This document shows, one piece after another, positions 11,558 through 49,005 of a DNA stretch of 64,000 nucleotides. A model generated the notes under the pieces. The model saw only the letters and a list, made by a program, of their open reading frames with translations. It ran no database searches and was not told where the DNA came from. Position numbers and translations under genes: made by a program. How positions within the stretch are numbered: the first letter of the stretch is position 1; each line of letters starts with the position of its first letter. Location: contig NC_061063.1 of assembly GCF_021917145.1 (NCBI RefSeq), positions 10,322,263-10,386,262 on the forward strand, read 5' to 3'. This DNA is from Hypomesus transpacificus. Lineage: Eukaryota; Chordata; Actinopteri; Osmeriformes; Osmeridae.

Positions 11558-14500
11558 ATGGCTGAGGTAAGATGTCGGAGGGCGGTGTTGCCAGGAGAGC
11601 TACAGGATGGCGAGGAAGACCTGGAGTCCAAGTACAAACTGCACAATACAGGTACTGGAACTACTCTGTAAGGCAAGAAACACATTGTTGTAGTAAAATG
11701 TCGACGTGTATTGACGCGCATTTCCGACTGGATAAAATGAAAACTGAACGTTTATCTACAGGAGATCCAGTCAGTCATGATGATGTAGATGCCACGGACG
11801 TGGGTGGTGAAGAAGGGGCACAGAAGTCTGTAAAGAAGCGGGAAGAGAAGGATGACGGAGAAACTAAGCCAGTGGAGGAGAAAACCGGAGAAAAGAAAGA
11901 CGAGACTGACAAACAGACGCCGTCTCCTGTTAAAACATCCACACGCTCCAGTAGATGTGAGTGATTTCAAGTACAGTAGCTTGACTCACCGTCCAGCAGT
12001 AGGAAGGGCGCTCTTTACAAGTGTGTGTGTTTTAAGTAAAGGATGACGGGAGTGAAATACAAAGAGTAAGTTAAAGCTTCAAATTCTCCTTTTCAAACCG
12101 GCTCTTCTTGCTTTACTAACGTGCAGCGGTGATGCTTCAGCGGCTAGTGAAGCTGTTCTTTGGCTGCCTAGCAGCAGTGACCTGCGGGATGATGTATGCG
12201 GTATATCTCTCTACCTACCACGAGAGGAAGTTCTGGTTCTCATCCCGACAGGTGGGTAGCAGTGTCCTTGTAGTGTCCGCCTTTGCATGGCCTCTCTGGA
12301 AAGATATATTGTATAAATATGCTCAATGGTGCTGTTCTGTGTGTTTTATATTATTTTGTATTAGGAACTGGAGCGCGAGATAACCTTCCAGGGTGGCAGT
12401 GGACTGTACTACTACTACTATAAACACATGCTGATGGCACCCTCATTTGAAAGAGGTCTGTTTGTTTTACTTGACTTACTCGCCCAGCTGAAAACAAGCT
12501 GAACTAGATGTGAACTGTCTGTGGAGGCCTTCTCGCTCACCTCCTGCTGTTTGCTCCAGGTGTCTACGAGCTGACCAGAGACAATAGGACCGTGTCTGGT
12601 CAGACCATCAACGTGGTGGAGCGTCTGTCTCTATACCCAGAGCTAGTCACCAGCCTCCTGTACAGAGTCACCGGGAGTCAGGTCGGTCACCTTAACCACA
12701 TTCTCAAACCAAAACTGTGAACCAACAGATCACCATGCAAGTGTTTTAAACTGTGGTAGATCTCTGTTAGTGCACGTGTGTTAAGACTCATGGGGTGTGT
12801 TTAGGAGAGGGCTTGTGTATGACGAGAGACACTCTCTGTTCAGGAGGTCATCGAGCCTGTGTACTTCTACATCGGGATGGTGTTTGGTCTCCAGGCCCTG
12901 TACGTCACGGCTCTGTTTGTGTCTAGCTGGGTGATGAGTGGGACCTGGGTGGCAGGTATGCTGGCCGTGGCGTGGTACGTCATCAACAGGTGAGTCATAG
13001 GCAGGTAGAGACACTGTCTAGTCTGGTCGCAGAGGGCCGTCCTCTCTATGAGCTTTGTGTTAACTCCTCTGGGTGCTGTGTTAACTCCTCTGGGTGCTGT
13101 GTTAACTCCTCTGGGTGCTGTGTTAACTCCTCTGGCTGCTGTGTTAACTCCTCTGGGTGCTGTGTTAACTCCTCTGTCCCCCAGGCCAGACACCACCAAG
13201 GTGGACTATGCCATCCCACTGCGGGACAACTGGGCCCTGCCGTACTTCTCCTGCCAGGTGGCAGCCATGACGGGGTTCCTCAGTAACAACATCAACTCTG
13301 CCACAGAGGTCACCATTACTTTATGCTAAGGCTAATTAGCAGCGATAGGGATTAGGAAAGCATCATTTTGTTGTACATTTTCTACATTGTATCTGGTTTA
13401 CTGTATGCACCTGCCCACCAAAGTAAATTCCTTGTTTGTGATCACTTACTTGGCGATTAAACACTATTCTGATTCTGATCATAATAAATACAAATTGTTC
13501 CAAGCTTTTCAAGCAATTTTTCAAACAAAAGAATCCTCATAAAACACGTCCATATTTGGAAAATTATTATTAGAGTGGTTTTACTACTCTACACTGGTTA
13601 GTAGTGCCATGTTCTGGTGTGTTCCACTGACATGCTGTGTTTCCCTGACACGCTGGCATGATTCAGATGTTCTGCTATCTTCTGATGAGTGCCACGACCT
13701 TCACGTTCGTCCTGGTGTGGGAGCACAGTCACTATGTGCTGTTCGTCCAGGGCTTGGCTCTCTTCCTGCTGGACAGCTTTGACCTTGTACAGCCACGCAA
13801 GGTACAGCTGCTTTCATCCTCCACTAGTCTGTTACTGAGCAAGTTGTCAACAGTAATGCAACCAAAGTTATAGAATATATCAATAACTAACAATATATTG
13901 TGCAGGTGATATGGTTCAAAACTCTATTTCCTTTCTTATTCTCTCCCCCCACCCCTCTCTCCCCCCCCCCTCTTTCTCTCTCTCTTCCCACACCCCTCTC
14001 TCTCTCTCCCCCCACCCCTCTCTCTCTCCCCCCACCCCTCTCTCTCTCCCCCCACCGCTCTCTCTCTCCCCCCCCTCTTTCTCTCTCTCTTCCTACACCC
14101 CTCTCTCTCTCTCCCCCCCCTCTCCCCCCCCCCCCCCCTCTTTCTCTCTCTCTCCCCACACCCCTCTCTCTCCCCCCCCCCACCCCTCTCTCTCCCCCCA
14201 CCCCACCCCTGTCTCTCCTGGGCAGATCGCTGACATTCACAAGGTGTACCTGAGCTCAGTGTTCCTGGCCTACGTGCTCCAGTTTCAGAACCCTCGTCTG
14301 CTCAGCTCTCCTCTGCTCAGCCTGCTGGTGGCCTCTGTCCTCGCTAGGTACTTCCAGGTACAGTCAGCCTCTCTGGAGCTCTGCTCTGGTCCAGACACAC
14401 ACTTTACACGCCCCTTATTTCTTTACCTGTGCACAAGTGAATTAATTTTTTATTTTATTTGAGAAACTAACAAACGGCAACAATTCTAAAACTGGAACAC

Positions 14501-17108
14501 ATTGGAGCTCTGTAGTTTCAGCCTCTCTCTCTCTCTCTCTCTCTCTCCTTCTGCTCTCATGTGGTGCAACTTTAGCAAAACATGAAGATGGGTCCTCTAG
14601 TGGCTCGAGTTATGAAGATCCTTCTTCACTTCTATCTGGTGTTCACCACTGGCATCACCTTCAGTTATTTAGTCAATGTGAGTAACATAGTTCACCTTCA
14701 GCTCCATCAAGTTTGTCACCTAGAACTTTGTTATGAGTTGTTTTGCTTGAAATTTGCAGAGACTAATGCCAGGCAATGAAAATGACTACCTATTCAAATT
14801 TCTCGAAGTGAAATTTGGACTTAACACAACAACGTAAGTATAACTGCTTGGATTAAAAATAAACTCCTAAAGTCCCAAGTAGCCCTTTCATCTAACATTT
14901 TTGTATGCATCTTTTCTGAATGGCAGAGATTATTATAGAGAAAAATAAGAAAATATATATATTTTCTCTAACCCTGTTCCATTTCCTTGTTCTTCTCAGG
15001 GACTTTGTGACCAACCTCCTGCTGTGCCAAGAGACCTTCCAGACTCCCAGCCAGGATATGTTCCTGCGTCTGACCCAGGCATCAGTCCTGCCCTTCTACC
15101 TCCTGGTCCTCAGCATCTGCCTGCTGTCCACCCTGCAGACCATCTACAGGAGGCTCAGGTCTCGCCTCGCAGCGCTACACTGGCATGCTGCTTCAGGAGA
15201 GGGAGCGTTGTCTCAGTGATTGGTGTGTGTTTCTGTTGTGACAGTGGGGAGCCAATGAAAACCAAGCACGCGCTTGAAGACGGGCGAATCGGCGAGCAGC
15301 CTGAAGTCATCTATCATGTGTTCCACACGCTGCTGTTTGGAGGGCTGGCCATGCTCTTTGAAGGGTACGCAGTTTCCAGTCACAGCAAACACACAGGAAC
15401 ATGATTGACTGATTGGATCTTTTGGTCCTTAAACTCTGATAACATGTGATCCCCCTACAGGATGAAGTATCTATGGACTCCCTACGTCTGCATGTTCACA
15501 GCGTTTGGTGTGTGTTCTCCAGAGCTGTGGATGACCGTGTTCAGGTGGCTGAGGCTTAAGGCCATCCATCCTGTGGTTCTGGTAAGGGCCCCCTCAGCCT
15601 GTCCCAGCTCCTCCTCTGGGGTCATGAACCACAAAGACATTTAGTAACATGAACTGTTTTCTGCTTATTTCACCCATAGGCTTTGATATTGAGCACAGCA
15701 GTTCCAACCATCATAGGGTTCAGTTTGTGGAGAGAGGTGAGGTCTACAGTGTTCTTGTGACTGTGTCCACACAACACCCAGATTGTTTTAAACATGTAGC
15801 ATTAAGCTATTAAAAGCTATTCATGTTCCTCCTGCAGTATTTTCCTCGTGTGATAGCAGAGCTGTCAGAGCTGCAGGAGTTCTATGATTCAGACACAGTA
15901 GAGCTGATGAACTGGATCAAGTGAGTGATCTCTCTCCCGCTTCACGTTGTTCTGGGATCATTTAGCATCATCTGCTCATTGATGACATTCATCTATTCCT
16001 AATCAAAACCATTTCAAAGTTGACAAATGCTTCTTCTCCTCTTTCAACATCTGTGTCTCTTCCTGTCTTGTGTGTTCCTCCTTCCTGTCTCGTGCGTGCA
16101 CTTCCTGTCCAGGACGCAGGCCCCCATGGCGGCGGTGTTTGCAGGGAGCCCTCAGCTGCTGGGGACGGTGAAGTTGTGCTCTGGCTGGACGGTGACCAGC
16201 CTGCCCCTCTTCTCAGACATCCACCTGCTCCGGAGCAGCGAGGATGTGAGTAGCCCCACAGCCAGGATGGCTGCCACTCAGTGGTTAGACGATTCGACTG
16301 CAGGGAAACAGGCCACAGGTTCAAATCCCCTGTGTTGGATAAAAGTGTCTGCTGAATATACAGTATTGTTATTATTATCCCTTGTGTAAGACGATTTCTT
16401 GAGTTATGTGCTTCTGTGAACGTGATGATGAGTCTTCCTGAACCAGAAGACCTACGTTTAACTCCTGTTCCCCAACAGACTCATCAGGTGTACGCTCTGA
16501 GATCTGCAGAGGACATCTACAAGATCTTGACCTCCCACAAGACTAACTACGTCATCGTTGAGGAGTCTTTGTGCAATGAGCTGAGCCACACCAAAGGCTG
16601 TCGGATCAAAGACCTGCTGGACATTTCCAACGGCCACGTAAGTACGACCAGCCACCTCAGACGTAGCCCCTCCCACCTCAGATGTAACCCCTCCCACCTC
16701 AGATGTAACCCCTCCCACCTCAGACGTAGCCCCTCCCACCTCAGAAATAGCCCCTCCCACCTCAGACATAACCACACTAAACATACACCTCAGACGTAGC
16801 CATGCTAAACATGCACAGAGCTGTCGAAACCTGCTTGTGGTTTGCCTAGCTAGTGTAGGGCAGGTAAACTCAATCTGTGTCACTGAAAAATGAAAAACGT
16901 AATATAATTTTTTTCTTGTTCTCTATTTTTCCTACCCCACTAGGTGGTGTATGATAAAGGTGAGATGTACTCGTTTTCCAAACACGGGCGTTTCTGTCAC
17001 GAGATCAAGCTGAACTACTCTCCTTACACCAACTACTTCACCAGAGTCTTCTGGAACCGCTCCTATCACATCTACAAAGTCAACTCTGTCATCTCCTTCC
17101 AGTACTGA
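11558..17108 (+). CDS. dpy19l4: DPY19-like protein 4, probable C-mannosyltransferase family
   Basis: A multi-pass ER membrane protein of the DPY19 family; family members transfer mannose from dolichol-P-mannose to tryptophan, though activity of DPY19L4 itself is not established. Exons: 11558-11651, 11762-11956, 12127-12251, 12365-12455, 12560-12681, 12844-12989, 13195-13308, 13667-13801, 14226-14357, 14576-14677, 14760-14833, 15000-15158, 15245-15364, 15461-15581, 15680-15736, 15838-15920, 16113-16245, 16479-16637 and 16944-17108. Type 4 identity comes from [81 protein letters not shown] and the C-terminal VISFQY. The acidic N-terminal tail (exon 2, rich in E and K) precedes the first membrane segment. 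Nearest alternatives are DPY19L1-3, but the matches favour L4. It lies in tandem upstream of ints8, as in human 8q22. Confidence 0.95.
13057..13190 (+). repeat. 21-bp minisatellite abutting a 3' splice site (dpy19l4)
   Basis: Six tandem copies of a 21-bp unit start with GTGTTAACTCC, at 13057, 13078, 13099, 13120, 13141 and 13162. The last copy changes into the polypyrimidine tract and the AG at 13193-13194 that precedes the exon starting at 13195. The array therefore occupies most of this ~205-bp intron. Confidence 0.9.
13385..13482 (+). repeat. LINE 3'-end-like fragment (L2/CR1-type tail)
   Basis: The stretch contains AAATTCCTTGTTTGTG, ACTTGGCGATTAAAC and CTGATTCTGAT in the order typical of the 3' ends of fish L2/CR1-clade LINEs. 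It lies in the intron between exons 13195-13308 and 13667-13801. No coding part of a LINE is seen, so it is a 5'-truncated relic. Confidence 0.5.
13944..14216 (+). repeat. Long polypyrimidine (C/T) tract before a dpy19l4 exon
   Basis: About 270 bp is almost purely C and T (mixed CTCTCT and C-runs up to 14), ending ~10 bp before the AG at 14224-14225. Interruptions are few (A in CACCCC and similar). On the other strand it is a purine tract. Such tracts can form triplex/H-DNA, and this one provides an oversized polypyrimidine tract for the exon at 14226. Confidence 0.9.
16255..16378 (+). repeat. SINE-like element with tRNA-type B box
   Basis: A head with CAGTGGTTAGAC (A-box-like) and GGTTCAAATCC (B-box) is followed by the fish SINE/LINE tail GGATAAAAGTGTCTGCTGAAT. 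It lies in the intron between exons 16113-16245 and 16479-16637. It looks like a tRNA-derived SINE in sense orientation. Confidence 0.6.
16652..16798 (+). repeat. 21-bp minisatellite in dpy19l4 intron
   Basis: About six copies of a 21-bp C-rich unit of the type ACCTCAGACGTAGCCCCTCCC occur, with GACG/GATG and TAG/TAA variants. The array starts about 15 bp after the splice donor of the exon ending at 16637. Confidence 0.85.
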
Positions 17109-18582: not shown

Positions 18583-21500
18583 ATGAGCGCCGAGGCGGTG
18601 GACCGTGTGGCCGTGAGCGGTAGCCGACCAAGCACTCCTCCTCAGGTGTCCTGGTTTGAGTTCCTCCTGGATGAGTCGCTACTGGAGAATCACCTGCTGA
18701 AGCCAAGATCAGGTCTGCACACATGTTCTATAACTTCTAGTAATTTCACAGCAAAGAAACCGTTTGACTGATAAGCTGTTTGTTTTCAGACCCAGCACCG
18801 GTACAGCTCATCATTCAGTTCCTTGAACAGGCTACCAAGCCTTCAGTAAACGAGCAGAACCAAGTGCAACCTCCCGCAGACAACCGCAGGAACCGCACCT
18901 TGAAGCTGCTAGCGCTCAAAGTAGCAGCTTTCCTCAAGTGGGATCTGGACGTGCTGGAGAAAGGGTGTGTCGAGGAGGGAGGGCACGTTTTCATTCAATG
19001 GATTTCATTCAGGCGATGTTGCTCCTGATGGAATCAAAGGCAGTGGATTAAGGTCCTATGTTGAAGTACTTTGTGTTGTCTTTCCCCCTCAGCTTGACTA
19101 TCCCAGTGTTGAACATGTTACTGAACGAGCTCCTGTGTGTGAGCAAGGTTCCCCCTGGGGTGAAGCATGTGGACCTGGACCTCTCCACCCTGCCCCCCAC
19201 CACAGCCATGGCTGTCATCATCTACAACCGCTGGTGTGTCATAACAAACGGGGCTAAGGAAACGGGGCTCATGATATAGGATGGGATCAAGAGGTCCCCC
19301 TGTACTGTAGTGTGTTGCCGATAAAGGCATATGTTAAAAGAATACATAATGTACTGTTACTTGTTCCATCAACATGTTCTGCACCAGCAACACTATCTCA
19401 CCATGGTTCATGTCCTGTCTCTCGAAGGGCGATCAGAACCATCGTGCTGAACAGTTTCCCAGAGAAGCAGGCCAAGCCAGGGCCTCATCAGATGAACATG
19501 TAGGTTCTGCATCCTCCTCCTCACCAGCACCAGACAGCACCTGGAGATAAGACGACATGTTCATTGCTGAGTTTTACTTGATGGCTTTCTGTTTGATAGG
19601 TTGAATATGGTGCAGCAGGAGAAGGAACTGACAGACAACATCCTGGGAGTGGTGAGTGGGCTCTCTAGGGACAAAGAAATCATAGGAATAATACATGTCA
19701 TTTGTAATGCACCTTTATTGCACTCAAATTCGCTACAGTACAGTTAAAATGTATATAATAAAACATGATATACAATAACAATAGACACAATTACATTAAC
19801 GATTGAAAAACCTGAAACGTTTTGAAGCAAATTCTTCAAATGGCCAAGCGAAGGAGTGTTTCTGTCGGAAGCAGGTAGGGAACAGGTAGGACAGACTTGA
19901 GCGTGAGGTCTGACCAGAGCAGGAACATCTTTGTGTGGTGAAACATGCAGCTGAAGGAGCAGGCGTCAGACTCTATCATGGTGCTAGAGGGAGCTCTGGG
20001 GCTGAAGAAGGACCTGTACGTCCACACTGTGAGGACCCTGGACTTGCTGGCCGCCGACCCCAGCACCTCCAACGGAGAGACAGAGTCCTCCACGGCCGGC
20101 CTCCGAATCAGCGCTGACGAGCTGCACTGTCAGGTGAGTGTCGGGCTGTGCTGCGCTCTGCAGACGGATCATACAGAACCTCCATAGCTGTGACTGAAGC
20201 GTTATGTTCTGGCTGCTGTGACTGAAGCGTTGTGTTCTGGCTGCTGTGTTCTGGCTGCTGTGTTCTGGCTGCTGTGACTGAAGCGTTGTGTTCTGGCTGC
20301 TGTGTTCTGGCTGCGTGACTGAAGGGTTGTGTTCTGGCTGCTGTGTTCTGGCTGCTGTGACTGAAGCGTTGTGTTTTGGCTGCTGTGACTGAAGCGTTGT
20401 GTTCTTGCTGCTGTGTTCTGGCTGCTGTGACTGAAGCGTTGTGTTCTGGCTGCTGTGACTGAAGCGTTGTGTTCTGGCTGCTGTGTTCTGGCTGCTGTGA
20501 CTGAAGCGTTGTGTTCTGGCTGCTGTGTTCTGGCTGCTGTGATTGAAGCGTTGTGTTCTGGCTGCTGTGACTGAAGCGTTGTGTTCTGGCTGCTGTGAAT
20601 GAAGCGTTGTGTTCTGGGTGCTGTGACTGAAGTGTTGTGTTCTGGATGCTGTGACTGAAGCGTTGTGTTCTGGGTGCTGTGACTGAAGTGTTGTGTTCTG
20701 GATGCTGTGACTGAAGCGTTGTGTTCTGGCTGCTGTGATTGAAGCGTTGTGTTCTGGCTGCTGTGTTCTGTCAGCTGTGACTGAAGCGTTGTGTTCTGGC
20801 TGCTGTGTTCTGGCTGCTGTGACTGAAGCGTTGTGTTCTGGCTGCTGTGACTGAAGCGTTGTGTTTTGGCTGCTGTGTTCTGGCTGCTGTGATTGAAGCG
20901 TTGTGTTCTGGCTGCTGTGACTGAAGCGTTGTGTTCTGGCTGCTGTGACTGAAGCGTTGTGTTCTGGGTGCTGTGACTGAAGTGTTGTGTTCTGGATGCT
21001 GTGACTGAAGCGTTGTGTTCTGGGTGCTGTGACTGAAGTGTTGTGTTCTGGATGCTGTGACTGAAGCGTTGTGTTCTGGCTGCTGTGATTGAAGCGTTGT
21101 GTTCTGGCTGCTGTGTTCTGGCTTCTGTGACTGAAGCGTCATGTTCTGGCTGCTGTGTTCTGGCTGCTGTGTTCTGGCTGCTGTGTTCTGGGCTGGCTGC
21201 TGTAACTGAAGCGTTGTGTTCTGGCTGCTGTGTTCTGGGCTGGCTGCTGTGACTGAAGCGTTGTGTTCTGGCTGCTGTGTTCTGGCTGCTGTGATTGAAG
21301 CGTCATGTTCTGGCTGCTGTGTTCTGGCTGCTGTGACTGAAGCGTCATGTTCTGCCTGCTGTGTTCTAGGTGCACTATGACCTGGGGGGGATCTTCTTCC
21401 AGCAAGGCTGCACAGACCAACAGGCCTACGAGAAGGCCAGGGAGCAGTTCAGACAGACCAGGGAACTGCTGTTGAAGGTAGTGTGTGTCTGTGTGTGTCT

Positions 21501-24500
21501 ATCTCATGTCCTGGTGGTGTGTGTGTCTATCTCATGTCCTGGTGGTGTGTGTGTCTATCTCATGTCCTGGTGGTGTGTGTGTCTATCTCATGTCCTGGTG
21601 GTGTGTGTGTCTATCTCATGTCCTGGTGGTGTGTGTGTCTATCTCATGTCCTGGTGGTGTGTGTGTCTATCTCATGTCCTGGTGGTGTGTGTGTGTGTCA
21701 TGTCCTGGTGGTGTGTGTCATGTCCTGGTGGTGTGTGTCATGTCCTGGTGGCGTGTGTCATGTCCTGGTGGTGTGTGTCATGTCCTGGTGGCGTGTGTCA
21801 TGTCCTGGTGGTGTGTGTCATGTCCTGGTGGTGTGTGTCATGTCCTGGTGGTGTGTGTCATGTCCTGGTGGTGTGTGTCATGTCCTGGTGGTGTGTGTCA
21901 TGTCCTGGTGGTGTGTGTCATGTCCTGGTGGTGTGTGTCATGTCCTGGTGGTGTGTGTCATGTCCTGGTGGTGTGTGTCATGTCCTGGTGGTGTGTGTCA
22001 TGTCCTGGTGGTGTGTGTCATGTCCTGGTGGTGTGTGTCATGTCCTGGTGGCGTGTGTCATGTCCTGGTGGTGTGTGTCATGTCCTGGTGGTGTGTTTCA
22101 TGTCCTGGTGGCGTGTGTCATGTCCTGGTGGTGTGTGTCATGTCCTGGTGGTGTGTGTCATGTCCTGGTGGCGTGTGTCATGTCCTGGTGGCGTGTGTCA
22201 TGTCCTGGTGGCGTGTGTCATGTCCTGGTGGTGTGTGTCATGTCCTGGTGGCGTGTGTCATGTCCTGGTGGTGTGTGTCATGTCCTGGTGGTGTGTGTCA
22301 TGTCCTGGTGGCGTGTGTCATGTCCTGGTGGTGTGTGTCATGTCCTGGTGGTGTGTGTCATGTCCTGGTGGTGTGTGTCATGTCCTGGTGGTGTGTGTCA
22401 TGTCCTGGTGGTGTGTGTCATGTCCTGGTGGTGTGTGTCATGTCCTGGTGGTGTGTGTCATGTCCTGGTGGTGTGTGTCATGTCCTGGTGGTGTGTGTCA
22501 TGTCCTGGTGGTGTGTGTCATGTCCTGGTGGTGTGTTGCAGCTGGACACAGCACTGCACTGTCACCTGGACGAGCAGCGCCTGGCGGGGTACTGGAACGC
22601 ATGCAGGGCCCTGACCGGCACCTCCGACCCCAGTGACACCCAGCTCAGCCCCTACGGACAGATCAACAGCCTCATCAGAGCCCACAACCACCAGGTCTGC
22701 ATGTGCAGGATGAGCCCTTTTAGTACGGCTGGGCACTATGGCATCAAATGTTTAGCACTGTATAATTATGAAGCATGGGTCGATAAAATGTTGTCAGTTT
22801 TTCTGCCAAGGCTCTCAGCTGGATTTGGATGGGTACGGCAGGTGTGTCAGATTTTTTCCAACAGTCCAGTACTCAGAACAATTACTGCAGGTTAGAAAGG
22901 TTTAACAAATATTTTTGTATAAAGTTTCAAAAGGTTGATTTTTTTTAGACTGAGACCTGCCTGTTAGATATGACCTGGTACCAGTTTTGAAAAGTTGAAA
23001 ATAGTAAAAAAAAAAAAGAAAAGTTTAGATTTCTTTTTTGAAAGGTTGAAAAGATCTAACGTGAGACCAGCCCTTTCAGATCTGACCTTAGACCAGCCTG
23101 TTAAATCTGACTTGAGACCAGTTTTGAAGGTTTGAAAAAATATTTAGAATAACGTTTTTTGCAAGGTTCAATCTTTTTTTTGGAAATGCAGTTTCGAAAG
23201 GTTGAAAATTCTGAGAATAAAGTCTGAAACATTCTAGTCTCACATATGCTCTCTCTCTCCCTCTCAACAGGCATTAATAGAGGCATTCATTAAAGACAAC
23301 ATATCTCGCAGCTTGCCCAATTATTTCAGACAGTCTGTCCTGAGAGAGTTCCTGCATAAAGTCCAGCAGGGGTAAGGAACACAGTCATCATCCCTGGATA
23401 TCAGTTTCAAACACAAGTTCACCATTCAAAGGCTGTCTGAGGAAGCATGTAAACACTTCTGTGATGCGTGTCCTGTGTTCCCGTGTGTTCCCGTGTGTTC
23501 CCGTGTGTTCCCGTGTGTTCCCGTGTGTTCCCGTATGTTCCCGTGGCCGTGCAGCGAGCGGGGTCTGGACGAGGTGTGTGACAGGCTGTGTGTCTGTAAC
23601 GCTGTGCGAGATGCTCTGCAGGGGGAGCTGCTCAGCGTGCGCTTCCTGCGCCTGCTGCTGAAGCCCAGCAGGAGCCTGGTGGACTTCATCCTGGAGGTAC
23701 CCAACCCCCAGCCTGCCTCACGCCCCACTACAACATGTCTGCCTCATGTCCCACTACAACATGTCTGCCTCATGTCCCACTACAACATGTCTGCCTCACG
23801 CCCCACTACAACATGCCTGCCTCACGCCCCACTACAACATGCCTGCCTCACGCCCCACTACAACATGTCTGCCTCATGTCCCACTACAACATGTCTGCCT
23901 CACGCCCCACTACAACATGTCTGCCTCACGCCCCACTACAACATGTCTGCCTCACGCCCCACTACAACATGTCTGCCTCATGTCCCACTACAACATGCCT
24001 GCCTCACGCCCCACTACAACATGCCTGCCTCATGTCCCACTACAACATGTCTGCCTCACGCCCCACTACAACATGTCTGCCTCACGCCCCACCACAACAT
24101 GTCTGCCTCATGCCCCACTACAACATGTCTGCCTCATGTCCCCCAACCCCCAGCCTGCCTCACGCCCCACTACAACATGCCTGCCTCACGCCCCACTACA
24201 ACATGTCTGCCTCACGCCCCACTACAACATGTCTGCCTCATGTCCCCCAACCCCCAGCCTGCCTCACGCCCCACTACAACATGCCTGCCTCACGCCCCAC
24301 TACAACATGCCTGCCTCACGCCCCACTACAACATGTCTGCCTCACGCCCCACTACAACATGTCTGCCTCATGTCCCCCAACCCCCAGCCTGCCTCACGCC
24401 CCACTACAACATGTCTGCCTCACGCCCCACTACAACATGTCTGCCTCACGCCCCACTACAACATGTCTGCCTCATGTCCCACTACAACATGTCTGCCTCA

Positions 24501-27500
24501 CGCCCCACTACAACATGTCTGCCTCACGCCCCACTACAACATGTCTGCCTCATGCCCCACTACAACATGTCTGCCTCATGTCCCCCAACCCCCAGCCTGC
24601 CTCACGCCCCACTACAACATGCCTGCCTCACGCCCCACTACAACATGTCTGCCTCACGCCCCACTACAACATGTCTGCCTCATGTCCCCCAACCCCCAGC
24701 CTGCCTCACGCCCCACTACAACATGCCTGCCTCACGCCCCACTACAACATGCCTGCCTCACGCCCCACTACAACATGTCTGCCTCACGCCCCACTACAAC
24801 ATGTCTGCCTCATGTCCCCCAACCCCCAGCCTGCCTCACGCCCCACTACAACATGTCTGCCTCACGCCCCACTACAACATGTCTGCCTCACCCCCCACTA
24901 CAACATGTCTGCCTCATGTCCCCCAACCCCCAGCCTGCCTCATGCCCCACTACAACATGCCTGCCTCACGCCCCACTACAACATGCCTGCCTCATGCCCC
25001 ACTACAACATGTCTGCCTCACGCCCCACTACAACATGTCTGCCTCACGCCCCACTACAACATGTCTGCCTCATGCCCCACTACAACATGTCTGCCTCACG
25101 CCCCACTACAACATGTCTGCCTCATGCCCCACTACAACATGTCTGCCTCATGTCCCCCAACCCCCAGCCTGCCTCACGCCCCACTACAACATGCCTGCCT
25201 CACGCCCCACTACAACATGCCTGCCTCACGCCCCACTACAACATGTCTGCCTCACGCCCCACTACAACATGTCTGCCTCACGCCCCACTACAACATGTCT
25301 GCCTCATGCCCCACTACAACATGTCTGCCTCACGCCCCACTACAACATGCCTGCCTCATGCCCCACTACAACATGTCTGCCTCACGCCCCACTACAACAT
25401 GTCTGCCTCACGCCCCACTACAACATGTCTGCCTCATGTCTGCCTCACGCCCCCCCACTACAACATGCCTGCCTCACGCCCCACTACAACATGTCTGCCT
25501 CATGTCCCCCAACCCCCAGCCTGCCTCACGCCCCACTACAACATGCCTGCCTCACGCCCCACTACAACATGCCTGCCTCATGCCCCACTACAACATGTCT
25601 GCCTCACGTCCCACTACAACATGTCTGCCTCACGCCCCACTACAACATGCCTGCCTCACGCCCCACTACAACATGTCTGCCTCATGCCCCACTACAACAT
25701 GTCTGCCTCATGCCCCACTACAACATGTCTGCCTCACGCCCCACTACAACATGTCTGCCTCACGCCCCACTACAACATGTCTGCCTCATGCCCCACTACA
25801 ACATGTCTGCCTCACGCCCCACTACAACATGTCTGCCTCATGTCCCCCAACCCCTAGCCTGCCTCACGCCCCACTACAACATGCCTGCCTCACGCCCCAC
25901 TACAACATGTCTGGACTGGGCCACCTCACGTGTATCGCTCGCTGTCCTTACAGGTGTGCACAAAGTCGTTATACCAGGAGCGCCAGACAGAGACTTCCAG
26001 AAGGAACATGGCCATCTTTCTTAGGTGAGCGTTGAGTCTCTAGGACGACAGTTGTGTGTTTGAGCTCTGGATGTAATGTGCCTGTATGTCTTACTGCTGC
26101 ACGAGGAATCCTGTTCATCCAACAGTCTTGAACCCAGTTCCCACCCCACACAGGACCCTGTGTGAGAACCTGGAGGAGCTGGCCCTGGTGTTTGTGGTGT
26201 CATCCCACAAGCTGTTCCTGGAGCTCCTGCGGGAGGAGGAGAGGAAGGCCCTGGTGGAGCAGATGAGGAAGCGCTCAGCTACCGTCAACCTGACCGCTAA
26301 GCCCCTCCCCTCCTTCTACGACATCCCCGGTGAGATACCCTGTCCCTCCTCACCTCAGCCTCCAGCTGGGCACACCTGTCTCCCTGCCTGTCCTGTCACA
26401 TGTCACCTAAAACTGTCCTGGAGAAGCATGAAAAATGCCCATGAAGAGACTATATATTTCAGCGTGTCATCTTTTTGAGATGTTTGTGTTGTGTGTTCCC
26501 AGCCTCGCCCAGTGTGAACATGGGCCAGCTGGAACAGCAGCTCATCCTGTCTTTGGACCCTCGCAGGATCCGCCAGATCCTCATCGAACTGCACGGCATC
26601 GCCCAGCGGCCCTTCTGGAGGGTCAACGCCAAGGTCAGAGGTCAACACGCCAGATGAGGAAGTGACATCACCCATGAACAGCAATGTTTTTCCTTCTGGG
26701 GGCTAGCTTCTGATTGGCTGTTCCTTGTGTTCACAGTGGGAGGTTCCTCCTGACTACATCAACGTGATTCTCAGCATCAAAGACAACCTCATTAAGGACT
26801 TGGTGTACATCCTGATGGCTAAAGGTCTCCATTGCATAACCATAAAGGTCAGTGTGTCTTCCATCAAATAAGAAGAAAGGACTTGGGAGTGTATGTGAGT
26901 CTTTAACAGAGTGATCCTGTGTGTGTAATAATGTATGACCTGTGTTACCTGTGACTGTGTTCCTACCTCAGGACTTTGGCCACGCACGGCTGCTGTTCTC
27001 CGCCTGTCTGGAGCAGGTGACTGAGTTCTCCCCCAAACTGCGTCAGGTGATGCTGAACGAGATGCTGCTGCTGGAGGTGTGCGCCCACGAGAGCGCAGCG
27101 GGCGAGGGCTGCAGGGACAGACCCCCGCCTGACCTGGCCAGCAGGGTCCGGGGATACCTGGAGATGAGGATTCATGGTGGGGAGAGGGGGACAGAGAGAA
27201 AGGCTTTTTAAATGTTCAATTCACAAATCTTGATAAATATACGATTTGTTGTGTGCAGAATGTGGTTTGAACCCAACAGCTGCAGCTGTGGTGTACAGTG
27301 AGCCTGAGGTGTGTGTGTCTTCCTGTGGCAGACCTTCCGCTCAGACAGGTGGTGGGAGAGCAGTGTGTGGCGTTCATGCTGAACTGGAGAGAGAACGACT
27401 ACCTCACCCTCCAGGTGCCCCAGTCTCTGGTCATGAACAACCCCTACATCAAGGTAAAGTCCACAGGCGTCTCTGTCACCTAAACTCCCCCGGTGCAGAG

Positions 27501-30500
27501 GAATGGCTGCAAACAATGAGGTCATTCTGTTCAGAACACAAGTGATATTAATCATGTAGTTCTGTTCTAACCGTGCACACACATACATTTGTATCCCCGC
27601 TCCATTTCCCTAGCTGGGACAGCTCCTGGCCTCCACCTGCAAGGAGCTCCCAGGTCCTAAAGAGAGCCGGCGCACAGCTAAGGAGCTGTGGGAGGTGGTG
27701 GTGCAGATCTGCAGCGTGTCTCTGCAGCACAAGAGGGCCAGCGACAGCCGCGTCTGCCTCATCAAGCAGAGGGAGTCCACCATGGGCATCATGACCAGGT
27801 ACAGCCTCAGCCAGGCTAGCATGGGCATCATGACCAGGTACAGCCTCAGCCAGGCTAGCATGGGCATCATGACCAGGTACAGCCTCAGCCAGGCTAGCAT
27901 GGGCATCATGACCAGGTACAGCCTCAGCCAGGCTAGCATGGGCATCATGACCAGGTACAGCCTCAGCCAGGCTAGCATGGGCATCATGACCAGGTACAGC
28001 CTCAGCCAGGCTAGCATGGGCATCATGACCAGGTACAGCCTCAGCCAGGCTAGCATGGGCATCATGACCAGGTACAGCCTCAGCCAGGCTAGCATGGGCA
28101 TCATGACCAGGTACAGCCTCAGCCAGGCTAGCATGGGCATCATGACCAGGTACAGCCTCAGCCAGGCTAGCATGGGCATCATGACCTGGTACAGCCTCAG
28201 CCAGGCTAGCATGGGCATCATGACCAGGTACAGCCTCAGCCAGGCTAGCATGGGCATCATGACCAGGTACAGCCTCAGCCAGGCTAGCATGGGCATCATG
28301 ACCAGGTACAGCCTCAGCCAGGCTAGCATGGGCATCATGACCAGGTACAGCCTCAGCCAGGCTAGCATGGGCATCATGACCAGGTACAGCCTCAGCCAGG
28401 CTAGCATGGGCATCATGACCAGGTACAGCCTCAGCCAGGCTAGCATGGGCATCATGACCTGGTACAGCCTCAGCCAGGCTAGCATGGGCATCATGACCAG
28501 GTACAGCCTCAGCCAGGCTAGCATGGGCATCATGACCAGGTACAGCCTCAGCCAGGCTAGCATGGGCATCATGACCAGGTACAGCCTCAGCCAGGCTAGC
28601 ATGGGCATCATGACCTGGTACAGCCTCAGCCAGGCTAGCATGGGCATCATGACCAGGTACAGCCTCAGCCAGGCTAGCATGGGCATCATGACCTGGTACA
28701 GCCTCAGCCACAACATTCTACTGCTGGCTGTTGGGTTTACAATGTTTGGAAAGATAACTGTCATGTTTACATTGCCCCAACAGACACTAACAAGCATATC
28801 ACACCAAACCAACACAACCCAGGTACTGGTGGCTGTTGGTGTTTGTTTGGGCAGTGTGAACAAACCTAATACACACCATGCCCATCCAGTTGTAGTCTGT
28901 TCAGAGATTGTGTGTAAAGTCTTGCACAACTAATTTCCTATTCTACAAACTGCTTTCTAAATATTTGATTTGATTTGCTGAATCTAGGAGCAAATTCATC
29001 ACGTTCGTCAAGAAGTTGAGGGTGAGTGAATGAGGGCAGCTGTTTTGATGAATACACCAGGCATGTGATTGTTAGAAAGAGTCTCGAGTTTAAAGTCCTT
29101 GTTTGATTTCCCTCCAGGAGCCCCTGGTCCTCACCACCCTCATCTCCCTGCTGGTGCGACTGCACAGCATGGTTCGGGTAGGTAGTAGAAACTACTGGCT
29201 CTGTGTGATGTTCTTTGTATCCATATACAATACCAGTCAAAAGTTTGGACACATTTGACTGGTACTGTACATGCACTTTTATTATCATGTAGGCTACTCT
29301 GTGTGTGGACTATGTGATGCATTGACATGTTATTGCTGCTGTTATCTTGGCCAGGTCTCCCTTGTAAAAGAGATCTTGCATCTCAATGGGACTTCCTGGT
29401 TAAATACAAAAAACATTTCCAAAAGTTCCCAGCACCTGACCAGTGCTTGTTCACACCTGCTCCAGCTGTGTGCTGTTTAACCAAGGCTGTTTTCTTCTCC
29501 TCAGGATGACATTGTTAATGAAGTGACAGCTGAACACCTCTCCATCTGGCCTGCCTCTCTCTCCAAGTATGACCCTCCTCTCCTCAGAGCTCACGCCACA
29601 GGGCACCTCCTGTAGTCTGACAGAACAGTAGGACCCTCCTCTCCTCAGAGCTCACGCCACAGGGCACCTCCTGTAGTCTGACAGAACAGTACGACCCTCC
29701 TCTCCTCAGAGCTCACGCCACAGGGCACCTCCTGTAGTCTGACAGAACAGTACGACCCTCCTCTCCTCAGAGCTCACGCCACAGGGCACCTCCTGTAGTC
29801 TGACAGAACAGTACGACCCTCCTCTCCTCAGAGCTCATGCCACAGGGCACCTCCTGTAGTCTGACAGAACAGCAAAAGTTAGGAATGAGGGTTTTACACA
29901 GACTTGTCTAAATGTGTTACAAGATCAGACACTTGTGACTCATTGAGTATGAGCATTTCCGGTACTGATTACGCTGAGGTGTGTGTGTTTGTGTGTGTGC
30001 AGCTTGCAGGCGGTGGATGTGGAAGCTGTAGCTGTGACAGTGAAGGAGCTGGTCTCCTATGCTCTGACTCTGAACCCCAACAGCCAGTCCTGGATCGTCA
30101 CTCAAGCAGACATTTACTTTGGTAGGACAACGCCCCCGGGATCTCCCCCTCACTTTCTGAAGAGCCTGGTTTCACTGTCGAGTGTGGCTTTAGGTCAATG
30201 CCCGTGTCCTCCATTTTGTTTGTGCAGTTACCAACCAGTACTCTGCTGCCCTGCACTACTACCTGCAGGCTGGGGCGGTGTGTTCCGACTTCTTCACCAA
30301 GACCGTCCCCAGTGACGTGTACAGTGACCAGGTACAGCCCTGACAATGCTGTGGGGGAGGAGGGCTGCATAGCACTTCCATCTGTACAGTTTCTCTATTA
30401 TATACACAAAAGTTTGTTTGTTTTTTGTTTGTCACAAATTATTAACGAAGGAATTATTTGGAATCCCCCCCGGTCTGACATCCCCCCCCCACCACAAATA

Positions 30501-31650
30501 GATTTCTAATCTTTGGGAAACTCTGGACAGGGTACACAGGACATGCTAGGGGTTGATGTAGAACAGGGTTCCTGACATGTGACGTGGTGCCCATATCTTG
30601 CAGGTCCTGAAGAGGATGATCAAGTGTTGCTCGATGATGAACTGCCACACACAGGTCAGACCCTCTACCTCAGCTACTCCATGTTCTCACTCTGACACTT
30701 GAGGGTATATATGTGATGTGGACGTATACCTCCTGCTTCCCAGGTTGCTGTGCTCTGCCAGTTCTTAAGAGAGGTGGACTACATGACGGCTTTCAAAGCT
30801 CTTCAAGAACAAAACAGGTGAGGTGTGTCTCCACTGTGGGAGGTCCAGCTGATTTATCAAGAGCTCTTCAGAATTCTTCTTGTTTCATTCCAGCCACGAT
30901 GCCATGGACACCCTGTACGACTACATCTGGGATGTGACCATCCTCGAGTATCTCACCAGTATCCTTCTCAATAATCCCTTTACAGACATAAATTGACAGT
31001 GATATATGGGATTTAGAGGGAATTACACATTTTGTTTTGGTTATCATGTCCTCAACAACAAAAGACATCCACCATAAAAGAGGTGAAAGTGAGAAGAGAC
31101 AAATAGCTGTAAGTTGTCTGCTTTCAAAACATATTTTCAATAGTTTTAGTTCGTAGTGCTCGTCTTCGTAGATTAGTTTTGAGATGTGAACTGCTGTGTT
31201 TCTCAGATGATGTTTGTCATGTGACTGTGTTTCTCAGATGATGTTTGTCATGTGACTGTGTTTCTCAGATGATGTTTGTCATGTGACTGTGTTTCTCAGA
31301 TGTTTGTCATGTGACTGTGTGTTTCTCAGATGATGTTTGTCATGTGACTGTGTTTCTCAGATGTTTGTCATGTGACTGTGTTTCTCAGATGATGTTTGTC
31401 ATGTGACTGTGTGTTTCTCAGATGATGTTTGTCATGTGACTGTGTGTTTCTCAGATGTTTGTCATGTGACTGTGTGTTTGTCATGTGACTGTGTGTTTCT
31501 CAGATGTTTGTCATGTGACTGTGTGTTTCTCAGATCCAGGCTATCGGCCAGACGGAGCTGAATGCCAGCAACCCCGAGGACGTCCTTCAGCTGGCGGCCC
31601 AGAAGAGAAAGAAGAAATTCCTTCAAGCGATGGCAAAGCTTTACTTTTAG
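18583..31650 (+). CDS. ints8: Integrator complex subunit 8
   Basis: Subunit of the nuclear Integrator complex (snRNA 3' processing and promoter-proximal termination); INTS8 helps recruit PP2A to Integrator. Exons: 18583-18712, 18790-18965, 19093-19233, 19428-19499, 19600-19651, 19951-20133, 21370-21477, 22542-22694, 23271-23371, 23555-23696, 25954-26024, 26154-26329, 26503-26633, 26737-26847, 26972-27176, 27332-27453, 27614-27798 (see repeat), 28988-29021, 29118-29177, 29505-29566, 30003-30121, 30228-30331, 30604-30654, 30744-30817, 30894-30958, 31065-31108 and 31534-31650. Phases join throughout. Diagnostic residues are SWFEFLLDESLLENHL, NRTLKLLALKVAAFLKWDLD, CVAFMLNWREN, HYYLQAGAVCSDFF and the C-terminal KKKFLQAMAKLYF. 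The length is as expected for the family. Introns carry seven minisatellites, two of which multiply splice sites (27782-28716 and 31191-31533). Confidence 0.97.
20184..21365 (+). repeat. Compound 14/28-bp minisatellite filling an ints8 intron
   Basis: About 1.2 kb alternates two related units, TGTGTTCTGGCTGC (14 bp) and a 28-bp version that adds TGACTGAAGCGT, with local variants (ggatgc, gggtgc). It occupies nearly the whole intron from the donor at 20134 to the acceptor at 21369. Confidence 0.95.
21485..22536 (+). repeat. 28-bp then 20-bp minisatellite filling an ints8 intron
   Basis: Seven copies of a 28-bp unit (CATGTCCTGG at 21505, 21533, 21561 and so on) pass into about 42 copies of a 20-bp unit, TGTCCTGGTGGTGTGTGTCA, with a common gtg/gcg variant. 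The array starts within 10 bp of the donor at 21478 and ends 5 bp before the acceptor AG at 22540-22541, so the intron is essentially all repeat. Long stop-free translations across it are repeat artefacts. Confidence 0.97.
23476..23545 (+). repeat. 10-bp minisatellite before an ints8 exon
   Basis: Seven copies of TGTGTTCCCG (one TATGTTCCCG) end about 10 bp before the acceptor AG at 23553-23554. Confidence 0.9.
23700..25915 (+). repeat. 2.2-kb 26-bp minisatellite filling an ints8 intron
   Basis: About 80 copies of a 26-bp unit of the type GCCTCACGCCCCACTACAAC plus ATGTCT occur, with CACG/CATG and TCT/CCT variants. A recurrent inserted variant, TGTCCCCCAACCCCCAGCCT, is spaced irregularly. The repeat starts directly at the donor (23697). 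Its first bases (CCCAACCCCCAGCCTGCCTC) are the same as the inserted variant, so the array seems to have grown from the intron's own 5' end. 26 bp is not a codon multiple, yet all three plus frames are open. Confidence 0.97.
27782..28716 (+). repeat. 39-bp minisatellite containing the 5' splice site of an ints8 exon, 24 copies
   Basis: A 39-bp unit begins ATGGGCATCATGACCAG, followed by GTACAGCCTCAGCCAGGCTAGC. The first copy is the end of the ints8 coding exon (conserved residues MGIM-TR) with its donor ACCAG/GTACAG at 27798/27799. ATG starts recur every 39 bp from 27782 to 28679, giving 24 copies; the last is truncated. Copies are nearly identical apart from ACCAG to ACCTG in a few. Since 39 is a codon multiple and the unit is open in this frame, every later donor would add 13 residues per unit in frame. 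Confidence 0.97.
29229..29276. repeat. Tc1/mariner-like terminal-repeat relic
   Basis: ACCAGTCAAAAGTTTGGACA is followed by ATTTGACTGGTACTGTA, forming a small inverted structure. The first part is a widespread fish Tc1-like terminal sequence. It also occurs twice inside the element at 59623-60284. Confidence 0.5.
29567..29873 (+). repeat. 61-bp minisatellite starting at an ints8 splice donor
   Basis: Five copies of a 61-bp unit occur (TCCTCAGAGC at 29581, 29642, 29703, 29764 and 29825). The first copy begins immediately at the donor of the exon ending at 29566. Each unit carries CCCTCCTCTCCTCAG, which resembles a 3' splice site. The authentic acceptor used by the next exon is at 30001-30002. 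Confidence 0.93.
31191..31533 (+). repeat. ~31-bp minisatellite containing the 3' splice site of the last ints8 exon, 11 acceptors
   Basis: TTTCTCAG occurs 11 times between 31199 and 31533 within units of about 28-33 bp (GTGTTTCTCAGATGATGTTT then GTCATGTGACT). The last copy (AG at 31532-31533) is the acceptor of the terminal coding exon beginning at 31534 (residues IQAIGQTELNASNPED). The ten upstream copies have the same local acceptor sequence. Use of the nearest one would add 30 bp with an in-frame TGA. Confidence 0.95.
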
Positions 31651-33462: not shown

Positions 33463-36400
33463 CATATCAAAATACCTCTTCTTGGAGCGGAACCATCTCC
33501 TCCCATTCTGATGTGTTTGACTCTGACAGCAGTAAAACTGTACATGACCGTAAGTGATCTCTATCTAAACTGTGTCACAGGATGCAGAGGTGGTTAGAGG
33601 GATGTTGCAAACCGTGTTTTTATTTCTTTGTATTGTTGCACATGGTTGCAGGTGCAAACTCCCACTGCCGTTCACATCTACCAAAAAGGATGTTGGACAA
33701 ATTGAAGCCTCAAATTGTCCCATCTGAAAGTTTATCAAAGTAGAATACATTCCATGATGTCCTCCTTTCAACAGAACCATCCATAACCCAACATAAGGGA
33801 TGCTGGTGGAGTCTCAGACTGCCGGGTCATGAGCTGAATCAGCCTGTTGTGTTCACCTCAGAGTCCATCGCTGACCTGGTCCTGCAGGTCTGCCAGGACC
33901 TGGGCTGTGGTGGACTTTATAATCTGACCCGGGCCAGTTCTCCCCCCAACAGTAGCTGCCTCACGAGCTGTTCCTACCACGATCGTCTCCTCCACAACTG
34001 CTCCCAGGTTGTTAGGAGCGACTGCATAACCGTGTCTGAAGTTTACTGTGGTAAGATCACAGAGCAGATTCACACGAGTACTAAGAAAATAAAACAAACT
34101 AAAGATAAAGTTTTTTTTAAAGCCTTTGGTAAAACAGATGGCAGTTGGACAGATATGCTAAGTAGTGCCGCGTGTTCCAGGGAACCAGGCTGTGCGGTTG
34201 CAGGGCGGCGGTCACCGCTGTGCCGGGCGGGTGGAGCTGTGGAGAGACGGCCAGTGGGGCACGGTGTGTGACGACCAGTGGGACCTGAGAGACGGGGATG
34301 TGGTGTGCCACCAGCTGGGCTGTGGCTACGCACTCAACGTGTCTGGGCAAGATGGCTCTACCCCCCTAGGCACTGGGCCCATCTACCTGGACGAGGTCAA
34401 CTGTACAGGGAAGGAGAGGGACTTGTGGGAGTGCCCGGCCACGGGAGATCACGACTGTGGACACAAGGAAGATGCCGGGGTGGTCTGCTCCGGTAGGAAG
34501 GTTCATTAGTTTGACCGTTATCAGGGTATTACTACTCATCTAGCCTGCCATTCTTGAATACATGTGATCAGGGGCACCTTCACTGTATTTGAATTAAATG
34601 TTGCTCCTAACAGGCCCTTGGTGCTAATTAATTGAAGCAAATTAATGAAATTAAAAAAAAAAAATGTTTTACATAGCCTTTATATTATTTATATTTGTTC
34701 TTTCCCCTGTCTCCTACAGAGAGGAGAGCGGTCAGGCTGAGTGGGGGTCTGGACCGCTGCTCTGGAAAAGTGGAGATTCATCGTAACGGGACCTGGGGGT
34801 CGATTTGTCACGACTGCTGGGAGATGCAGGAGGCAGACATGGTGTGCTCCATGCTGGGCTGCGGTGAGCCGGTCCAGTTCATTGGATTCAAACCGCCCTT
34901 CAACACTCACAACAACGGACCAAAGTGGTACTACATATGTTATAAGAAACACCAAACCTTGTGGGACTGCCAGGAACTCGCTAATCCCTCGTTCTGTGGC
35001 ACACAGGCTGCAGCCCTTATCTGTAAAGGTTAGTCGCCAGAACTGTATTTATACAACATCAGCAACACAGCTGTGAACACAAATATTTGATGCGTTCTGT
35101 GAACACAAACATCTGATGCGTTCTGTATTGTGAACACAAACATCTGATGCGTTCTGTATTGTGAACACAAACATCTGATGCGTTCTGTATTGTGAACACA
35201 AACATCTGATGCGTTCTGTATTGCACCCTCAGGGTCTCGTGGATTGCCTGATCTGAAAACCACGACAGAAACTGGGCCAACCTCAATGACCATGATGATA
35301 ACAAGTAAAAGTTGCAGCTCATTTCCAAAAAAATAGAAAAATAAAATTTTTCTATTTTTAAAAAAAATAAAGAAAATTAAAACATGAAGTTGAAATTCTC
35401 TTCCCTGACAGTTTGTGGTTTACTCTCATGTTCAGAGACCAGAGCCCCCAATGAGTCTTTCCTGCCCCCCATGTCCCCCCTCCTGCTGGGCTGTGTGGCG
35501 CTCTCCTTCCTCCTCCTCCTCGCCCTGATCACCAACGCTCTGCTCTGCTGCCAGAACAGAAGGAGAAATGGTAGGTCCCTGGTCTGACTAACTAACTAAC
35601 TAACTAACTAACCTCCCTCCCTCCCTCCCTCCCTCCCTCCCTCCCTCCCTCCCTCCCTCCCTCCCTCCCTCCCTCCCTCCCTAGTACATTCTTACTGCAA
35701 TGTCATGAAGTGTCTTCCCCAGCTCTTGTGGTTCAGATGAGACACTCCAGCCTGCACGCGCCGTCTGAACACTGTGAGAATGAATACCGAGACTCTGTAG
35801 ACCTGGTCAAGATCACCAACACAACCATGAGCAACAATGGTTAGTGAGTCTCTGTTTGCTTTTTCTACCTTCAGCACACCGGAAAATTAGGTGATTCAGG
35901 GTCACTGGACTCAAAGGTTAGAGTGTGTGAGGATCTTGTCTGGAAACCTGTTCTCTATTCTTACCGGTTGAGGGAAACACATCACTATAAAATATATCTA
36001 GCCTTTTCAGAAACTGCCAGGATCTGTTTAGTTTTAGACCACGTATAGGAACCATGAAACATGATTTAGTAGTTTAATCCTTAATTTTCTCTCTGTTTTA
36101 CAAAGTCCCGTCCAATCCCAGAAGCCTTTGGCACCATCAGAGTAGCATGGACAGCACATCTGTGGACACAGACTCAGAGCACTGGGAGCCGGATCTGACC
36201 ACCTTTAGGAGTAAGATGGGCTGTTCTGGGTTACAGTTAGGGTTAGCTATATGTACAGATTACCAGACTATATTTGATATATTTAAACTTAATCAAACTT
36301 CCACAGAAATTACAAGTTTTGAGCATAGATCAATCAGATCAATCAGATCTAATAGTGTCTGTGACTCTAGACTCACAACGGTACAGAACCAACAGGCCAA

Positions 36401-47515: not shown

Positions 47516-49005
47516 CTACCTACAGCCACAGGACTCAACCACCATGTCTTCGTACTGCTGATACACCACATTGTTTCCTGCATCTATGTACAGGATGCTG
47601 ATGGGGGTGAGTTTGGACGGGGCGCAGCAGCTGGGGGGCATGTTGCTCGGGTTCATGGAGTTCATGAGAGTCTGGATGATGGCGTGATTGGTGGGCTCCA
47701 GGTGGGACCTGAGAGGGAAGTCACACACGCCCTCGCAGTGGTACGCCTCGTAATCCAGAGGTGCGATGATCCAGTCATCCCAGCCCAGCTCTCTGAAGTT
47801 CACGTGAAGCGGCTTCTTGCTGCATCTGGACTTCCTGCTGTGCCTCTTGCCGTGCCGGCTGTGCCTCTTGCCGTGCTGGCTGTTCTTGGACGTGACAGTG
47901 CGCCGTGTCCTGGAGGCCTTAGACAGACGACCGCTCTCCTGCGCCGTCTGGCTCCATGACGACGTACTCTCTCTTCGTTCACTGAACAGAGTCTGTCTCT
48001 TTCTGGACCTGGTGAAGACTACGAGGATGGCTTTCTTCTGCTGCGGGCGTGCACTCCTGTGGAAGCCCAGACTGTTCAGGTCCAGCTCCTTCTCAGGGTT
48101 GTCCAACATGGCCTTGAGTTCCAGACAGAACTGCTTCCCCTCAGTCCTGCGCTGCCAGTCCTTGAATATCTCCCACACATCCAGAACTTCCCACCTGGGC
48201 CTCTGGGAATCTTGAAGATCCAGTGTTTGGGAGTCCAGCAGCTGTTGAGTGTGACAGGAGAGGAGCTGGATGTCCACTGGTCCTGTTTCCGATATCCTGA
48301 AATTTCCAGAGACTTTGGTGTATATCCTCAGCTCTGCCCCCAGAACTTCAGCGTTGTCTGAGAGACTTGAGACGTCAAACAGATACTGCTGTCTTCGCAC
48401 AGGGGAACGTGGGAGGCCATCTGTGAAAAGCATTCAATCATGACTCACATTCATTCTGTGGGAATATTCTCAAGGACTTTGTCAATGGAATCTCATGACC
48501 GTTTACCATGATCAGTTTATGTCTAGGGGTCAACCAAGGGTCGAAACTCTGATCAGTGTGATCATCTCAAACTGAGAACTGATCAAACTCACCATTGGCA
48601 GGTATTGCTTGTTCTCTCTTACCTTGTCTCTTAATTAGACATTGTTGGATTTTACGTACCTTGTCCGATGTCCACAAAACTTGCTATGGTGTTGGCAGCT
48701 TTTGATGACCTAAAGAAACTCGCATTGAGACCCAATTTTTCTGCTGTAGAAAAAGTCTTATAAATGGAGAGCATATAATCGTGCGGTTCAATTGGGTCTT
48801 CAGAATTACTTTTGTAATGTCTCTCGCTCGATGATGACGTATAAAAGTCTTTAAAATGTGTTGACTTCTCGTGCCCATCAAACAACTTAGTTACCTTAGC
48901 GCTCTTGGGAACGGATGGTAGATAAATAGCAAATGTTCGTAAACAAGGTAATTCCCCAGCACATACCAGAGCTGCATATAGTGTAGTTATTCGGTAAAAG
49001 TCCAT
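47516..49005 (-). CDS. gdf6: Growth/differentiation factor 6 (BMP13-type ligand)
   Basis: Secreted TGF-beta/BMP ligand involved in joint, skull, eye and dorsal patterning. Two exons: 48660-49005 and 47516-48420, joining in phase (GQ-D-GLPRS), which gives a protein of 417 residues. The start [20 protein letters not shown] forms a plausible signal peptide. A propeptide follows, then the furin-type site RTRR, a very basic stretch with HGKRHSR twice, and the cystine-knot domain [20 protein letters not shown] with [23 protein letters not shown] and the C-terminal VVESCGCR. All seven cysteines are present. The mature domain is nearly identical to known GDF6; GDF5 and GDF7 are the closest alternatives. 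Whether it is the a or b fish paralogue cannot be decided here. Its start lies ~960 bp downstream of the pkhd1l1 stop. Confidence 0.97.

Follow-up and report, generated by a model that had tools for sequence, protein, structure and literature searches.

Splice sites in tandem repeats

In UBC, the AGGT at each unit border serves as donor or acceptor, and mRNAs with a variable number of units are reported (PMC10809524). The array described here, which lies at the end of exon 17 of ints8 in Hypomesus transpacificus, resembles UBC and VCX3A, as these are presented in that paper, in having AGGT per unit, a unit length that is a multiple of three, an open frame, and units that can be removed without a frameshift. 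However, the UBC repeat is a coding monomer of 228 nt and its variable inclusion is documented by RT-PCR ladders (PMC10809524), whereas the ints8 unit is mostly intron at an ordinary exon end, with a weak acceptor side and no known inclusion.

Three other systems are comparable in part. The boundary repeats of human segmental duplications are also minisatellites with units of tens of bp that can alter splicing; they are described mostly with both transcript forms and in recent paralogues, whereas ints8 is conserved and has 24 copies and one known form (PMC2812944). Minigenes with competing 5' splice sites likewise place identical donors before one acceptor, with two designed sites as against 24 natural ones in ints8 (PMC9225289). 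Where introns are gained because a proto-splice site was duplicated in tandem, the duplicated stretch again yields a second usable site, but the outcome reported is a new intron, whereas in ints8 an old intron has been lengthened (PMC2891723, PMC4974935). The ints8 array thus belongs to an already described kind, the splice-boundary repeats. The initial annotation of this DNA knew of no such case in INTS8; this stands insofar as no title among the literature matches listed concerned an INTS8 splice-site array (dual-specific splice sites were covered through PMC10809524 alone), but not for the kind itself, which is described in PMC10809524 and PMC2812944.

Gene model of ints8 and its upstream neighbour

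The window is a 64,000-nucleotide stretch of contig NC_061063.1. Within it, ints8 runs on the + strand from 18583 to the stop codon at 31648–31650 and comprises 27 exons with GT-AG introns. The joined exons reproduce H. transpacificus INTS8 (P0029) at 995 of 995 residues in an exact spliced fit. P0029 matches the INTS8 TPR family PF25756 with 645 bits, and its residues 1–995 align to residues 1–995 of the solved human INTS8 (7cun_H). In the fit, donor 1 (27798) is joined to 28988 without an insert, and the boundaries and phase 2 given for exons 17 and 18 in the initial annotation were recovered unchanged. The features at this junction are as follows.

27614..27798, + strand, ints8 exon 17 of 185 nt, with donor 1 at its end, accag/GTACAGCC (spliced fit of P0029)
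27799..27804, + strand, donor 1 (GTACAG), which yields the annotated protein (spliced fit of P0029)
28988..29021, + strand, ints8 exon 18, acceptor partner of exon 17 (spliced fit of P0029)

The gene upstream, at 12132–16637, was mapped with P0070, which carries a Dpy19 domain; we take this gene to be dpy19l4-like. Its arrays at 13056 and 13940 stop 8 bp before the intron end. P0070 itself is a 1701-residue pipefish record labelled INTS8 isoform X3 in which the Dpy19 domain is joined to INTS8, the two being neighbouring genes in the window, and represents either a read-through or an annotation fusion.

The 39-bp array at the end of exon 17

The array is a genuine and tidy minisatellite that spans the splice donor of ints8.

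27782..28710, + strand, 39-bp array of 24 units, the last of 32 nt (unit-start matches and Tandem Repeats Finder)
27838..28701, + strand, donors 2–24, one every 39 bp; CTG/GTACAG in units 11, 18, 22 and 24, CAG/GTACAG in the rest
28931..28933, + strand, first in-frame stop if intron 17 is retained (frame translation)

The 24 unit-start matches extend from 27782 to 28679 and all 23 spacings equal 39 bp, which bears out the earlier description of 24 ATG starts exactly 39 bp apart, with an exon end and a donor in each unit. Since Tandem Repeats Finder independently reports a period-39 array (27781–28710, 99% matches, score 1832), the regularity is beyond chance. A full unit consists of the last 17 nt of exon 17 and the first 22 nt of the intron, and the first unit spans the junction 27798/27799; with 24 copies of 39 bp over a splice junction, the array falls among minisatellites at exon-intron boundaries (units of about 10–100 bp). 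Twenty of the 24 units are identical and read ACCAG/GTACAG. Units 11, 18 and 22 carry an A>T change that gives ACCTGGT; unit 24 has the same T and diverges after 32 nt. The frame of exon 17 stays open across the whole array, as far as the stop at 28931, so the unit is, as proposed, an open codon multiple that offers exon 17 24 legal in-frame donors. If a T unit formed the exon end, the junction residue would be Trp instead of Arg. The 8-nt AGGCTAGC of the unit is absent from the two immediate flanks, and a 31-mer of the array had no match in viral_contigs.

Strength and accessibility of the array sites

Donors and acceptors were scored with a small matrix built from 38 mapped splice sites. The A-form donor has 6 of 9 matches to CAGGTAAGT and a U1 duplex energy of −7.2 kcal/mol, and outscores 8 of the 38 mapped donors, a middling strength; all A units have the same sequence across the donor. 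For the T form, the corresponding values are 5 of 9, −4.2 kcal/mol and 4 of 38, in agreement with the weaker donor context that the initial annotation had assigned to the ACCTG/GT units, of which there are four. The donor of the array unit also recurs in the same gene:

30325..30339, + strand, 15-mer TGACCAGGTACAGCC at the exon 22 donor, identical to the donor of the intron-17 array unit

As an acceptor, the array unit outscores 4 of the 38 mapped acceptors, with pyrimidines at 6 of 16 positions against a median of 11. Predicted 9-nt accessibility ranges from 0.0017 to 0.0073 over the 20 A donors, and three of the four T donors have lower values. Masking of the inner donors by RNA structure was considered and rejected, as the value for donor 1 (0.0026) lies inside the range of the other A donors. 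The intron upstream of exon 17 measures 160 nt, and the downstream intron 292–1189 nt depending on the donor.

Protein evidence for use of the inner donors

Three protein queries were used: the junction with two blocks (28 matches), an approximate full-length protein (best 120 of 665), and exon 17 with the array frame (34 matches). These searches cover annotation-level protein data, not transcripts. The letters of the 13-residue block were not found among the listed matches of the first two queries (148 proteins), nor did the junction motif occur twice in any of the 182 proteins listed for all three. The 34 matches to the third query align over 8–19% of its length, roughly the exon alone. Twenty matches among the 182 were flagged as reading beyond the junction, none with a repeated unit, and most of those that extend beyond it are apparently genomic open reading frames that enter the intron in other species. 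The initial annotation foresaw up to 23 longer isoforms; the geometry of the array does permit them, but their production is unsupported, as none of the 182 listed proteins contains a block.

The comparison set of 120 INTS8 proteins, each of more than 900 residues (best 120 of 665), shows a well-kept junction. In the alignment of these full-length sequences, 100 are unchanged in net length near the exon 17/18 junction, 5 gain 1–4 residues (the largest gain being 4), and 15 lose residues; several of the deviating proteins look like gene-model errors. INTS8 of Osmerus mordax (P0030) has the same junction free of inserts at the protein level. A strict text pattern for the junction (67 of 120 clean) was abandoned, since many of the proteins that failed it simply differed in sequence or had faulty gene models.

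The record of P0029 is not labelled as an 'isoform', which suggests that it is the single annotated isoform. Short RNA-seq reads map badly within a 39-bp repeat, and an annotation that lists no isoforms is therefore weak evidence. Block-bearing isoforms may more generally be missed by short-read annotation of fish genomes rich in tandem repeats.

Other splice-site arrays in ints8

The intron-17 array is not unique. Two further introns of ints8, which the initial annotation missed, also have multiplied splice sites, and the intron-17 array looks ordinary for this reason.

29566..29872, + strand, comparison array at the start of intron 20, 5 copies of a 61-bp unit with the intron's donor (Tandem Repeats Finder)
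31184..31535, + strand, comparison array at the end of intron 26, 11 copies of an approximately 30/31-bp unit with the acceptor TGTGTTTCTCAG (Tandem Repeats Finder)

Use of donors 2–5 in intron 20 would put a stop into the message, and the 10 upstream acceptor copies in intron 26 each reach a stop within at most 6 codons. In both introns, the exon-side copy is the site that gives P0029 and, because the other copies give stops, it should be the main site. Of the three, the intron-17 array alone has an open, in-frame unit, roughly as expected if one period in three is a multiple of three. Authentic splice sites of ints8 have thus been multiplied in three arrays (24 donors, 5 donors and 11 acceptors), two of which punish the wrong site with a stop while that of intron 17 does not. 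Together they amount to a natural test of whether the exon-side or the intron-side copy is chosen when sites are nearly identical, and copy number would be graded as well if alleles vary.

Array landscape and chance placement

After merging, the window has 37 arrays, among them a few microsatellites, and these 37 make up 16.7% of its length. Eight arrays account for 6142 of the 13065 bp of ints8. In the related H. nipponensis, tandem repeats are reported to form 14.61% of the genome, compared to 3.26% in stickleback and 5.83% in Takifugu rubripes (PMC12083275). The arrays in ints8 introns 6, 7, 9 and 10 lie 2–16 bp from a splice site, and the weak array of intron 8 lies 149 bp away.

Individual introns show some further peculiarities. 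At 21478–22541, intron 7 is nearly all array, with a 28-bp unit followed by a 20-bp unit, from donor +13 to 5 nt short of the intron end. Intron 10 is mostly a 2.2-kb array (23713–25913) with a 26/52-bp unit that begins 16 bp past the exon end. At 20205–21369, the acceptor of intron 6, TGTGTTCTAG, resembles that intron's own array unit TGTGTTCTGG with one base changed, making AG.

The distance of arrays from splice sites was counted over the 38 introns mapped in ints8 and dpy19l4, of which 11 bear arrays and 27 (median 113 bp) are free of them. One weak-fit dpy19l4 junction, two unfittable ones, a (CT)n tract (14523) and an array whose next exon is unmapped (16652) were excluded from the count. 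Random placement in such short introns would put 2.93 of the 8 ints8 arrays over junctions, and 3 were observed (P(3 or more)=0.63). Chance seeding followed by minisatellite growth therefore suffices, and no special attraction of arrays to splice sites is needed. An apparent tendency of arrays to seek splice sites (Fisher 0.0008; permutation 3.5e-5 with straddling arrays set at distance 0) came from a null that forbids straddling; the 8 non-straddling arrays alone give P=0.10, and the claim was dropped.

Origin and use of the array

The explanation that we consider probable is a minisatellite seeded by chance, of which the first donor is mostly used and the remaining copies are spliced out, the whole being tolerated rather than selected. 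The repeat would have happened to begin over the end of exon 17 in a smelt genome rich in tandem repeats, and slippage or unequal exchange would then have raised its copy number to 24. Every copy would be a donor of working quality, of which the spliceosome would mostly take the exon-side one at 27798, because exon 17 would be recognised across the exon, while copies 2–24 would leave with the intron. The array would be tolerated without selection, its open frame lowering the harm from mistaken use of a later donor; the intron-17 array is probably neutral.

Minigene data and intron lengths bear on the choice of donor 1. When two identical strong donors compete in minigenes, the upstream one is reported to be used exclusively, and the upstream of near-equal donors is favoured in the class with a short upstream and a long downstream intron (PMC9225289). 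With 160 nt upstream and 292–1189 nt downstream, exon 17 belongs to this class, which points to donor 1. Three considerations count against this. With donor 24, intron 17 would be 292 nt long, near the 250-nt boundary. Over all human events, with no filter on strength, the downstream 5' site is reported as preferred in about 60%, and larger-exon minigenes with weakened identical donors mainly skipped the exon (PMC9225289). The array donor is itself of no more than middling strength.

An array of dual-specific sites as in UBC, with AGGT acting as donor or acceptor and multiples of 39 nt stochastically kept or removed to give variable 13-residue blocks, seems unlikely here, although several features agree with it. 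AGGT is kept once per unit in 20 of the 24 units (the four T units keep GT and lose AG), the period is an open multiple of three without an in-frame stop, and the array donor outscores some authentic donors, sharing its 15-mer with that of exon 22. UBC performs such splicing, and introns spliced at dual-specific sites are 8.4-fold enriched in human tandem-repeat genes (PMC10809524). In a low-confidence structure prediction, the junction (which follows residue 753) also lies beside a loop between two helices; this is a hint only, as the INTS8 model has a mean pLDDT of 48.7 and a pTM of 0.28 and its alignment held 25 of the 120 full-length proteins. The same reading has to contend with the low score of the unit as an acceptor, with the lack of a block-bearing protein among the 182 listed, and with the conservation of the junction region in INTS8; weak acceptors may gain help from an adjoining donor, as argued in PMC10809524. 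Its fullest form, a splice-site lottery in which stochastic use of AGGT would give the INTS8 TPR region 0–23 blocks, in a mix that would track allele length and differ between individuals, is allowed by the sequence geometry and is somewhat more doubtful still.

An assembly artefact, in which the assembler expanded a shorter true array, would account for the 20 identical units, but we regard it as very unlikely: the four T units are irregularly spaced, at intervals of 7, 4 and 2 units, which does not resemble a looped copy, the array at 929 bp is short relative to long reads, and similar arrays abound in the window. Least credible of all is a selected function in which the array would buffer or regulate ints8 splicing, for example as a decoy that binds U1. 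The intron-side position of the weaker T donors (units 11, 18, 22 and 24) would fit it, with a rank sum P=0.028 if the four were independent; however, they are probably copies of one mutation, which makes this value invalid. The sister arrays suggest that ints8 collects such arrays anyway, and the predicted accessibility of donor 1 does not set it apart from the other A units.

Other genes in the window

Three further protein-coding regions were recognised downstream of ints8. An SRCR-domain protein is encoded at 34677–35030 on the + strand. A TGF-beta family protein, presumably gdf6-like, lies at 47516–48433 on the − strand, and a CEMIP beta-helix protein, which we take to be pkhd1l1-like, at 62221–63327, also on the − strand.
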